Assembly: GCF_016097555.1 (NCBI RefSeq)
Contig: NC_054706.1
Span: 80,871,732 to 80,935,731, forward strand
Reading direction: 5' to 3'
Length of the DNA stretch: 64,000 nucleotides
From: Gigantopelta aegis
Lineage: Eukaryota > Mollusca > Gastropoda > Neomphalida > Peltospiridae
This document shows positions 24,768 through 60,900 of the stretch, piece by piece. Numbering within the stretch: position 1 is the first letter of the stretch; the number at the start of each line of letters is the position of its first letter. The notes under the pieces were generated by a model that ran no database searches, had not been told where the DNA came from, and worked only from the letters and a program-made list of their open reading frames with translations. The position numbers and the translations under genes are program-made.

Positions 24768-24947
24768 TCAGCCTGGCTCCACGTCGTAATACTGTTGGAA
24801 CACACGCTCTTGCTTGCAGCATTGCACGGCATCGTAGACGTGCATCAACAGTCTGGGGAAGCGTGACGTGAAGTACACCACAAACTGGTCGGGCACGCTG
24901 CCCAGCGAAGCCTTCACTTCATCCGGCAGTTCACGGTAGTGATGCTT
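24768..24947 (-). CDS. ERN1: IRE1 exon J (last): KEN RNase C-terminal half and stop
   Basis: The acceptor is TTAACAG before AAGCATCACTAC. The exon encodes [40 protein letters not shown] and [19 protein letters not shown], then TGA: 59 codons plus stop, phase 0. The second histidine of KHHY corresponds to human His910, the RNase general acid. The start of this exon and its acceptor are repeated in the adjacent intron. Confidence 0.96.
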
Positions 24948-27900
24948 CTGTTAAATGAGAGAGACAGTTAATTTCTGCTGTTTGCAGTAGTGATGCTTCT
25001 GTTAAATGAGAGAGACAGTTAATTTCTGCTGTTTGCAGTAGTGATGCTTCTGTTAAATGAGAGAGTCAGTTAATTTCTGCTGTTTGCAGTAGTGATGCTT
25101 CTGTTAAATGAGAGAGACAGTTAATTTCTGCTGTTTGCAGTAGTGATGTTTCTGTTGAATGAGAGACATAATTAATTTCTGTGTAAATATAAAGTTGAAT
25201 GTAATCATAAAATAATCATTTGATGAAAACCTTTATTTCCATGAATATATAACCTGACCTCACACCATGTGCTTCCTTCACCAGCCCAACTTGTCACGTC
25301 TTTCTCTTTCACTCTTAGTCACTTGACTACCTCTTTCTCTTTCACTCTTACAGTCACCTGACTAGCTCTTTCTCTCTTATAGTCACCTGACTACCTCTTT
25401 CTCTTTCACTCTTAGTCACTTGACTACCTTTCTCTTTCACTCTTAGTCACCTGACTACCTCTTTCTCTTTCACTCTTATAGTCACCTGACTACCTTTCTC
25501 TTTCACTCTTACAGTCACTTGACTACCTCTTTCACTCTTAGAGTCACCTGACTACCTATTTCACTCTTATAGTCACCTGATTACCTCTTTCTCTTTCACT
25601 CTTACAGTCACCTGACTACCTCTTTCACTCTTACAGTCACCTGACTACCTCTTTCACTCTTACAGTCACCTGACTACCTCTTTCTCTTTCACTCTTATAG
25701 TCATCAGACTACCTCTTTCTCTTTCACTCTTACAGTCACCTGACTACCTCTTTCTCTTTCACTCTTACAGTCATCAGACTAACTCTTTCTCTTTCACTCT
25801 TACAGTCACCTGACTACCTCTTTCTCTTTCACTCTTATAGTCACCTGACTACCTCTTTCTCTTTCACTCTTAGTCTCCTAACTACCTCTTTCACTATTAC
25901 AGTCACCTGACTACCTCTTTCTCTTTCACTTTTACAGTCACCTGACTACCTCTTTCACTATTACAGTCACCTGACTACCTCTTTCTCTTTCACTCTTACA
26001 GTCACCTGACTACCTCTTTCACTCTTACAGTCACCTGACTACCTCTTTCACTCTTACAGTCACCTGACTACCTCTTTCTCTTTCACTCTTACAGTCACCA
26101 GACTACCTCTTTCTCTTTCACTCTTACAGTCACCTGACTACCTCTTTCTCTTTCACTCTTACAGTCACCTGACTACCTCTTTCTCTTTCACTCTTACAGT
26201 CACCAGACTACCTCTTTCACTCTTATAGTCACCTGACTACCTCTTTCTCTTTCACTCTTACAGTCACCTGACTACCTCTTTCACTCTTACAGTCACCTGA
26301 CTACCTCTTTCACTCTTACAGTCACCTGACTACCTCTTTCTCTTTCACTCGTACAGTCACCAGACTACCTCTTTCTCTTTCACTCTTATAGTCACCTGAC
26401 TACCTCTTTCTCTTTCACTCTTACAGTCACCTGACTACCTCTTTCACTCTTATAGTCACCTGACTACCTCTTTCACTCTTACAGTCACCTGACTACCTCT
26501 TTCTCTTTCACTCTTACAGTCACCAGATTACCTCTTTCTCTTTCACTCTTACAGTCACCTGACTACCTCTTTCTCTTTCACTCTTACAGTCACCTGACTA
26601 CCTCTTTCACTCTTACAGTCACCTGACTACCTCTTTCACTCTTACAGTCACCTGACTACCTCTTTCACTCTTACAGTCACCTGACTACCTCTTTCACTCT
26701 TACAGTCACCTGACTACCTCTTTCTCTTTCACTCTTACAGTCACCAGATTACCTCTTTCTCTTTCACTCTTACAGTCACCTGACTACCTCTTTCTCTTTC
26801 ACTCTTACAGTCACCTGACTACCTCTTTCTCTTTCACTGTTATAGTCACCTGACTACCTCTTTCTCTTTCACTCTTACAGTCACCAGACTACCTTTTTCA
26901 CTCTTACAGTCACCTGACTACCTCTTTCTCTTTCACTCTTACAGTCACCTGACTACCTCTTTCACTCTTACAGTCACCTGACTACCTCTTTCACTCTTAC
27001 AGTCACCTGACTACCTCTTTCTCCTTCACTCTTACAGTCACCAGACTACCTCTTTCTCTTTCACTCTTACAGTCACCAGACTACCTCTTTCTCTTTCACT
27101 CTTACAGTCACCTGACTACCTCTTTCTCTTTCACTCTTATAGTCACCTGACTACCTCTTTCTCTTTCACTCTTACAGTCACCAGACTACCTCTTTCTCTT
27201 TCACTCTTACAGTCACCAGACTACCTCTTTCACTCTTATAGTCACCTACCTCTTTCTCTTTCACTCTTACAGTCTCCTAACTACCTCTTTCACTATTACA
27301 GTCACCTGACTACCTCTTTCTCTTTTACTTTTACAGTCACCTGACTACCTCTTTCACTATTACAGTCACCTGACTACCTCTTTCTCTTTCACTCTTACAG
27401 TCACCTGACTACCTCTCACTCTCATAGTCACCTGACTACCTTTCTCTTTCACTCTTACAATCACTTGACTGCCTGATTTTTACTACCAGTGACAATCATT
27501 GAAAAAACCCATACTTTAATTGTGTCTTTAGATACCTCTACAAATGATATTCATTTTTGCTGTACAAAACCATGTTAAAAAGTTATTTGATAACATCATA
27601 ATGCAGACAAATTTATTTATTACTATAATTAAAATGGTTAAAATATAGTGTTTCATTATAAGGTGTAAACCTTTTGTAGCAAAACTATATTGATATATCC
27701 ATACAAGCATGGAAATAAGTGAAGAATGGTCGTTCAGGTTGCAAGGAGGTTACCAGGTATCAAGAAAACAGAAGTAGAAAACAGAACTTCGTTTGCCACA
27801 AAATCTGATTAAATTAAAACTACACAACTTAAATTTTGATCAGTTAGTGTTATTTAGATACCCATTCAGTTCTACACTGAAAAGATTGACACGAATTAAT

Positions 27901-57900: not shown

Positions 57901-60900
57901 TTCCTCTCAAAGTTTACAAACTAGAACTATTGACTGGGTGGTTCTACTATGTCAAATCGTCCTCTCAAAGTTTACAAACTAGAACTATTGAGGGGGTGGT
58001 ACTACTATGTCAAATCTTCCTCTCAAAGTTTACAAACTAGAACTATTGACTGGGTGGTTCTACTATGTCAAACCTTCCTCTCAAAGTTTACAAACTAGAA
58101 CTATTGACTGGGTGGTTCTACTATGTCAAATCGTCCTCTCAAAGTTTACAAACTAGAACTATTGAGGGGGTGGTACTACTATGTCAAATCTTCCTCTCAA
58201 AGTTTACAAACTAGAACTATTGAGAGGGTGGTACCACTATGTCAAATCTTCCTCAAAATGTCAAAGTTAAAAATGGGTGTGTGCATTATACATAACAATA
58301 GAACAAATTATCTTTTACAAATGTCCAGCATCAGGTGAACACTTTACCACTGGGTTACGTCCCGCCATTTAACTTTTGTTTCCAATCAGCTAAAATATCT
58401 TGAATGAATGAAGTTTTATAGACAGGCATTCATGATGCTATAAGACGAATGAATGAAGTTTTATAGACAGGCATTCATGATGCTATAAGACGAATGAATG
58501 AAGTTTTATATACAAGCGTTCATGATGCTATAAGATGAATTAATGAAGTTTTATATTACAGGTGTTCATGATGCTATAAGACGAATTAATGAAGTTTTAT
58601 ATAGAGGTGTTCATGATGCTATAAGATGAATTAATTAACTTTATTGACAAGCGTTCATGATGCTATAAGATGAATTAATGAAGTTTTATATACAGGCGTT
58701 CATGATGCTATAAGATGAATTAATGAAGTTTTATATAGAGGCGTCCATGATGCTGTAAGATAGCAACCTAATACACTGAAAGAAATTATGCACTATTTTC
58801 TTTATAACTCACTATTAACATTTATATTCCTTTTGTAATAAATTTCAGATAAAAAGAAAGAAAAAAGAAAAAGAAAAAAGTAAATATTAAAAAAAAAAAA
58901 ATTCTGAGTACTGCTAAAGCAATAAATGTCCCCTACCGGGCCCAACAAATTTTTATATCTTCTAAATTCAAGGGTCATAACTCTGTGACAAATGGGTAAA
59001 TCACCATGAATGTCAAACTTGTTCTGTAATAGAATATGATAAAGCTACCTGTATGTATAAAATATCTTGAGGCATTGTGAAAAAACCATCTGGAAACCAT
59101 AAGTGGAATAGACAGATAGATGTACAGACAGAAGGATGGAGAAACATTTTATCGTCCCAACTGGACCGGTAGGGGACTAATAAATGACACATAAAATATA
59201 TATACATTACTGAAAACAATCAAGTCTTACCTGTATACAAATGTTCCTTCGCATCCATGTCCCAGTACATTTTTAGGATTGAAAATAATTTTTCCAACTT
59301 TGATAAATCCTGGAGGTAAATCTGAAATGAAAACACTGAAATTCATGACAGGAAGTTAAAGATTAAAACACTGAAACTCAGAAAGTGAAATGCAGGAAGT
59401 CACAGACTAAGACACTGACATTCAGGAAATCAAACACTACAACACTGACATTCAGGAAGTCACAGACTAAAATATCGACATTCAGGAAGTCACAGACTAA
59501 ACTACTGACTAAACTACCGACGACATTCAGGAAATCACAGACTAAACACTGACATTCAGGAAGTCACAGACTAAACACTGACATTCAGGAAGTACAGACT
59601 AAAACACTGACATTCAGGAAGTACAGACTAAAACACTGACATTCAGGAAGTCACAGACTAAACACTGACATTCAGGAAGTCACAGACTGACCACTGACAT
59701 TCAGAAAGTCACAGACTGACCACTGACAATAAAACATGCTTCAGTCATGGTGGTTTTAAGCTGTCATCTTTATGAATTAACAATAGTGGACACATTTCAG
59801 AGAAAACACACTGTCCCAGACAACAAACATCCTAACTTACTGTCCCAGACAAATAACACCTAACTTACTGTCCCAGACAACTAACCCCTAACTTACTGTC
59901 CCAGACAACTAACCCCTAACTTACTGTCCCAGACAACTAACCCCTAACTTACTCTCGAGTGCCTAATAAACATAGGGGCTGAATAAGCATAGGGTCTGGA
60001 AAATTTTCTAAAATCAATTAAAAGTAGGGTGCGGAATTAGCATAGGGTGTGGAAATTTAAAAAAAAAACAATAAGAGAAGAGTGCGGAATTAGCATAGGG
60101 TCTGGAAATTTAGCTAAACTGTAAAAATTTACTAGTAATGAAACCAATTTGGTTTGACATAAAAATAAAAATAAGTGTTTTGGAAATAACAAAAATATAC
60201 TATTGTTGTGTGTACATGTAATTTAGAAAACAAGCAGCTCAGAAATAAATAACATGTAGTAAATTTCATAGTATGAAAAAATGTGTTCACTATAAACATA
60301 TGTTTCTATTATCTGTTACAACTGTGTCACTGTCACACACAATTAAAACTGTAAGTGTGTTTGTACATTTAAATGAAATTATGATAATTAATGTGAGGCG
60401 AGATTGCAGCTTTGAAAAAAAATCCAAAAGTTCTATGCAAGAAAACCAAAACAATCAGGGTGGATGACAGCTCGCTAGATTCATCTCCTATATTTAACAC
60501 ATGGTCAATTATAACAAAACGTAATTTCATCAACTTAATTTTGACCTGTATCATTCTTTATTTTTAAAGCATAGGTGGGGGACACTTATGATGCCAGGGG
60601 CTGGCATACATAAATCTCAGCTGAAGATTCACAAACAACTGTGGTCATCGGCCATGCCAGCTGTTAGCGGAACGCGCCGGAACTGGAATGCGGTAAGGGG
60701 ATGTAACTCTGCCTAATTTTTCTTGCTAATTTCTAATAAACTCTATTTGCAAGTGAAAATAAAAAGGTGAGTGGAATTTGTAATGCAAAAAAATATATAT
60801 AAAAAGAGGAAAGAATGTAGATAAAGTTTGGGCCAGTTCCACTTATCCTAAAGGAACTGTACTTTATCTACTCTAGTATTAACAAAAAGTCATATTTACC

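Follow-up and report, generated by a model that had tools for sequence, protein, structure and literature searches.

Splice junction-copying minisatellites in the IRE1 gene of the gastropod Gigantopelta aegis resemble the mirages of amphioxus

Background

Minisatellite-like repeats spanning exon-intron boundaries have been described in amphioxus as 'mirages', in Adh3 and in the globin genes BflGb6 and BflGb9 (PMC3087553), and PGBD5 was added as a further mirage gene in a paper that also cites TnC (PMC3902484). According to both papers, mirages leave normal splicing undisturbed (PMC3087553, PMC3902484). Here we describe arrays of this type in the 3' half of the IRE1 gene, located on the minus strand of a stretch of 64,000 nucleotides from Gigantopelta aegis (NC_054706.1, positions 80,871,732-80,935,731; assembly GCF_016097555.1), which is referred to as the window and from whose start the positions of all features are counted. 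G. aegis is a deep-sea snail of hydrothermal vents. The arrays constitute an unusually dense mirage-type set, the first for a mollusc among the literature matches listed.

Like amphioxus mirages, the IRE1 arrays consist of tandem units made up of an exon edge, a splice site and intron sequence, on either the donor or the acceptor side. In both, the splice signals are kept in many copies and the gene remains intact, and the base units of the IRE1 arrays, 30-144 base pairs (bp) in length, lie within the range of 10-160 bp given for mirages (PMC3087553). The IRE1 arrays differ from mirages in their mollusc host, in occupying seven junctions of one gene, in reaching about 39 copies and in containing 387-bp higher-order units. 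The mirage hosts known from these papers are cephalochordates, which is a descriptive and not a defining property, whereas the IRE1 arrays belong to a gastropod; and while polymorphism and somatic instability have been reported for amphioxus mirages, the IRE1 arrays are known from one assembly sequence.

Tandem repeats in human segmental duplications are likewise minisatellites with units of about 30 bp at exon-intron boundaries; however, they alter splicing and can form new introns (PMC2812944), whereas nothing in IRE1 indicates that the copies are used. Intron gain by tandem duplication (the Rogers model, cited in PMC3087553; a potato RdRp case, PMC4974935) also involves a duplication that includes splice signals, but in IRE1 it is existing introns that are lengthened, with no new intron. 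A paper considered as a further related case (PMC6823432) proved to be about mitochondrial group II introns and was discarded. The literature matches listed include no description of arrays of this kind from a mollusc or from IRE1; as coverage of the literature is partial, this is weak evidence of absence. The initial annotation of this DNA gave the pattern as not known to be described for an IRE1 gene, and among these matches this holds for IRE1, but not for the type of structure, published as amphioxus mirages.

Results

IRE1 in the window

Ten exons (A-J) were delimited by reading their ends from the sequence (Table 1); they are separated by nine GT-AG introns and form a single open frame of 450 codons without frame errors. 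Pfam detects a kinase domain (PF00069, 1.8e-40) and a Ribonuc_2-5A domain (PF06479, 5.4e-44) in the product, and solved IRE1 chains in the PDB match it with a best E-value of 4.8e-183, confirming the identity given to the gene in the initial annotation. In a protein search, the 446 residues used as query were 100% identical to an IRE1-like protein of G. aegis (887 amino acids), and the next match covering the query among the matches listed was from Haliotis rufescens (77%). On the strength of the G. aegis match, amphioxus, considered in view of its mirages, was rejected as the source of the window. Since all 450 encoded residues are contained unchanged in the deposited G. aegis protein, the exon borders given here are those of that protein and correspond to the exon-proximal splice sites.

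Arrays that copy a splice junction

Tandem Repeats Finder (TRF) returned 107 rows for the window, and those with a score of at least 100 and a period of at least 10 were merged into 46 arrays. Together they account for 44% of the window, with shares of 55% in the intron DNA and 29% in the part of the window that lies outside IRE1; the birth of minisatellites is therefore not limited to junctions. At 7 of the 18 junctions, distributed over six of the nine introns, the repeat unit itself contains the exon edge (about 12-55 exonic bases) together with the splice site; five of the nine acceptors (E, G, H, I and J) and two of the nine donors (C and F) are involved. The units of the seven junctions are unrelated to one another, as are the donor and acceptor arrays that share intron F-G. 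As the units differ between junctions, they point to a recurring process and not to a single spreading repeat, in agreement with the earlier reading, and the copied exonic lengths noted there were also recovered (Table 1).

The limits of some arrays depend on how they are drawn. The copied exonic length at the G acceptor is 13 bases by eye and 10-24 by BLAST, while at the J acceptor BLAST similarity continues to 22 exonic bases, being weaker beyond the 12 identical ones. The I acceptor array starts at 29487 in TRF and was extended to 29445 by BLAST, and the E acceptor array has one more exon-like copy, extending to 49137. Two levels of organisation are seen in the I array, whose 35-bp units are embedded in longer units of 136 and 387 bp that include the exon piece; it resembles a small higher-order satellite.

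Table 1. Exons of IRE1 and arrays at or beside its splice junctions. Close decoys are copies of a splice site with at most four edits; identical refers to the 25 bases compared.
Feature	Position	Strand	Remarks
J acceptor array	24936..25181	-	51-bp unit; 12 identical exonic bases and AG; 4 close decoys, 3 identical
I acceptor array	29445..30932	-	39 exonic bases and AG; 7 close decoys, 3 identical
H acceptor array	32978..33327	-	50-bp unit; 19-27 exonic bases and AG; 6 close decoys, 3 identical; TRF start 32985
G acceptor array	46596..46779	-	40-bp unit; about 13 exonic bases and AG; 4 close decoys, 2 identical
F donor array	46993..48122	-	30- and 67-bp units; 43-55 exonic bases and GT; 5 close decoys, 0 identical
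E acceptor array	48673..49092	-	54/97/144-bp units; 41 exonic bases and AG; 3 close decoys, 0 identical
C donor array	55079..56800	-	44-bp unit, about 39 copies; 30 exonic bases and GT; 38 close decoys, 35 with GT, 11 identical
Array beside C acceptor	56913..58254	-	58-bp unit; first 13-14 exonic bases, not the acceptor; excluded from the junction-copying count
27-bp arrays, intron D-E	49190-49900, 50282-50516, 50810-50862 (within 49190..50862)	-	neither exon nor GT copied
IRE1 gene, exons A-J	24768..63967	-	open frame, domains, protein match; upstream exons outside the window
Exon A	63967-63829	-	
Exon B	59321-59231	-	
Exon C	56900-56771	-	
Exon D	51030-50871	-	
Exon E	48713-48520	-	
Exon F	48221-48080	-	
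Exon G	46608-46484	-	
Exon H	33004-32881	-	
Exon I	29483-29416	-	
Exon J	24947-24768	-	ends with the stop codon

Arrays beside junctions

The array beside the C acceptor has its TRF edge 13 bp outside exon C, its units as read by eye repeat the start of the exon without a polypyrimidine tract, and BLAST alignments of its copies end 12 bases before the junction; a scan for decoy copies with the C acceptor probe matched the true site only. Its units thus lack the acceptor and the array was rejected as a mirage. With the C acceptor dropping out, junction-copying arrays are found in six introns and not in seven, so that the eight junction-containing arrays reported in the initial annotation are largely real, seven of them standing. 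The 27-bp arrays of intron D-E begin at the 7th intron base past the D donor, and at other junctions the arrays stop at the 33rd intron base (A donor) or at least 8 bases before the exon (B acceptor).

Decoy splice sites

Decoys, i.e. copies of the splice sites within the arrays, were scanned by alignment with 25-base junction probes at up to 8 edits, a cut-off at which chance hits are included, and 114 copies were obtained, 93 of them with an intact GT or AG. Conservation counts are based on the 67 decoys with at most 4 edits, the 47 looser ones being set aside, and the stop-codon test uses all 93 intact copies. GT or AG is intact in 64 of the 67 close decoys, and in 22 decoys all 25 bases agree with the true site (11 at the C donor, three each at H, I and J, two at G and none at E and F). 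Use of any intact decoy would introduce a premature stop into the message (0 of 93 are stop-free). The true donor is always the first copy of its array and the true acceptor always the last, because the exon layout requires it.

When one random pair of adjacent bases was taken per array, a mean of 60.0 were intact versus the 64 of 67 observed for the splice dinucleotide (P 0.29). Within single arrays, the splice dinucleotide is matched or exceeded in retention by 10-22 of the 24 adjacent pairs (itself counted among them), and there is no clear conservation specific to the decoys. Selection destroying them was not seen among the 67 close decoys either. Selection for decoy sites, listed among the possible causes in the initial annotation, is therefore not supported.

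Arrays and junctions compared with chance

The junction statistics are post hoc and concern one gene with 18 junctions. In the placement null, the observed arrays were put randomly within each intron, with overlap into exons limited to 50 or 30 bases. When TRF edges were left unaltered, an array edge lies within 50 bp of 9 of the 18 junctions versus 4.95 or 4.36 under the null (P 0.018 or 0.005), and 6 junctions are spanned versus 2.41 or 1.52 (P 0.017 or 0.0015). A second set, in which arrays sharing a unit were merged manually and the boundary of the I array was corrected from BLAST, gave 10 of 18 versus 6.64 or 6.18 for edges (P 0.039 or 0.019) and 7 of 18 versus 3.37 or 2.29 for spanning (P 0.021 or 0.0015). 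Array edges thus lie near junctions above expectation in this gene, by a modest excess (9-10 of 18 versus 4.36-6.64), which the P values flatter, since the gene was chosen for its pattern.

In a birth model with 30 units, the outcome hinges on the ancestral intron length. For 16.9 kilobases (kb), which is the present-day non-array intron DNA, and for 8.4, 4.2 and 3 kb, the expected numbers of spanning births are 1.0, 1.9, 3.6 and 4.8, and the probabilities of at least seven are 0.000 (0 of 20,000 runs), 0.002, 0.057 and 0.19, respectively. A dedicated process acting at exon edges, among the causes proposed earlier, is not demonstrated by these figures; the excess is about 1.5- to 4-fold and vanishes in the birth model with ancestral introns totalling about 3 kb. 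A control gene was sought in 10 open frames of the window (six outside IRE1, four in its introns) and none was found; the curated cut-offs were passed by two of the ten, a DDE_3 transposase fragment and a repeat-derived frame matching a family of unknown function.

Other repeats in the window

A dispersed repeat, which we take to be a molluscan short interspersed element derived from a transfer RNA, is found at 52616-53012 and 50517-50810 inside two minisatellites (introns C-D and D-E), with relatives at 20267-20638, 5461-5669, 773-988 and 28237-28368; given its position inside the arrays, these two minisatellites appear older than the insertion. Between two arrays of 38-bp units (39833-40612 and 44586-45494) lies a 4-kb stretch (40613-44585) with several inverted self-matches, resembling a fold-back element that has entered a single, older 38-bp array. 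The arrays at 59810-59953 and 61455-63073 (region 59810-63073) have a common 28-bp unit and are about 1.5 kb apart, and about 140 bp of this spacer recurs at 37848-37982.

The 3' flank of IRE1 (1097-24706) is also rich in minisatellites, with 16 merged arrays such as those of 64-bp units at 1097-2562 and of 36-bp units at 21765-22803. The DDE_3 fragment (PF13358, 2.9e-08) lies at 8112-8552 on the minus strand and is interrupted by a stop codon. Rfam gave no match in the window at gathering thresholds.

Discussion

The arrays of IRE1 are probably mirage-type minisatellites that arose by ordinary birth across junctions and have been tolerated since the exon-proximal site stays in use. Segments of mostly 30-140 bp would be duplicated in tandem by slippage or unequal exchange in a minisatellite-rich genome, where the birth rate of such repeats may be high throughout, and some of them would straddle a junction. 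In that event the working splice site would remain at the exon, and the copies, displaced into the intron, would be free to multiply. Growth would be possible only towards the intron, with selection on the protein preserving both the body of the exon and the splice site next to it and so fixing the array edge about 12-55 bases within the exon. The extra splice sites may be tolerated because the spliceosome still chooses the copy adjoining the full exon, presumably through exon definition. Three observations weigh against this account: the use of the exon-proximal site across all 450 residues is known from the annotated protein alone; the splice dinucleotide is kept above the mean adjacent pair in all seven arrays, a difference that is not significant (P 0.29); and junctions are met above the random-placement expectation (P 0.0015-0.039), leaving room for a junction-linked process.

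Such a process, in which a transcription- or splicing-linked DNA event (R-loops, breaks or slippage during replication at the edges of exons) favours the birth of tandem repeats at splice junctions, agrees with the joined-array counts of junctions spanned (7 of 18 versus 2.3-3.4) and of edges within 50 bp (10 of 18 versus 6.2-6.6), and with the single spanning birth in 30 expected if 16.9 kb of non-array intron DNA is taken as ancestral. We nevertheless consider it unlikely, as the excess is 1.5- to 4-fold in a single gene picked for its pattern, the birth model with introns of 4.2 or 3 kb yields seven or more spanning births with P 0.057 or 0.19, and many IRE1 arrays touch no junction, arrays also being present outside the gene. 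Its wider form, whereby minisatellites in G. aegis, and possibly in further molluscs, are born preferentially across junctions, coupled to transcription or splicing, with intron growth seeded genome-wide at exon edges, is also doubtful. That selection maintains the decoys, for instance as a brake on splicing or as a source of regulated non-productive IRE1 mRNA, is improbable: the stop codon arising from every intact decoy tested is what a switch-off isoform would need, and nearly all close decoys retain GT or AG, with the splice dinucleotide above the mean adjacent pair in all seven arrays, but this retention is within chance, and amphioxus mirages (PMC3087553, PMC3902484) are tied to no single gene or function.

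Short repeats might also be falsely expanded in a long-read assembly. The G. aegis assembly was made from PacBio data with Canu and wtdbg2 (PMC7895826), some copies are identical across the 25 bases compared, and exact copy numbers may be off; but substitutions distinguish copies, dispersed repeats with further copies elsewhere in the window break up the arrays of introns C-D and D-E, and the exons carry no frame errors. We give this explanation very little weight, and an artefact as to the existence of the arrays is unlikely. The larger genome of G. aegis is attributed by its authors mainly to repetitive regions (PMC7895826). Recent gain of an intron when an exonic segment with an AGGT core is duplicated in tandem is a route proposed before, to which mirages have been linked (PMC3087553). 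It is scarcely credible here and was rejected, since each unit combines intron sequence with only one of the two flanking exons and contains a single junction, and the two arrays of intron F-G are unrelated, so that the intron ends do not derive from one duplicated exonic segment.

The IRE1 arrays extend boundary-spanning minisatellites from amphioxus to a mollusc and illustrate a simple route to harmless intron lengthening. Their density, with 22 decoys that match true sites at all 25 bases compared, turns a single gene into a demanding natural test of how splice sites are chosen. Should an excess of arrays at junctions exist genome-wide, it would suggest that tandem duplications have a source linked to splicing or transcription, and if minisatellite birth does prefer junctions, genes like IRE1 would serve as natural tests of exon-proximal choice among tens of near-identical sites.

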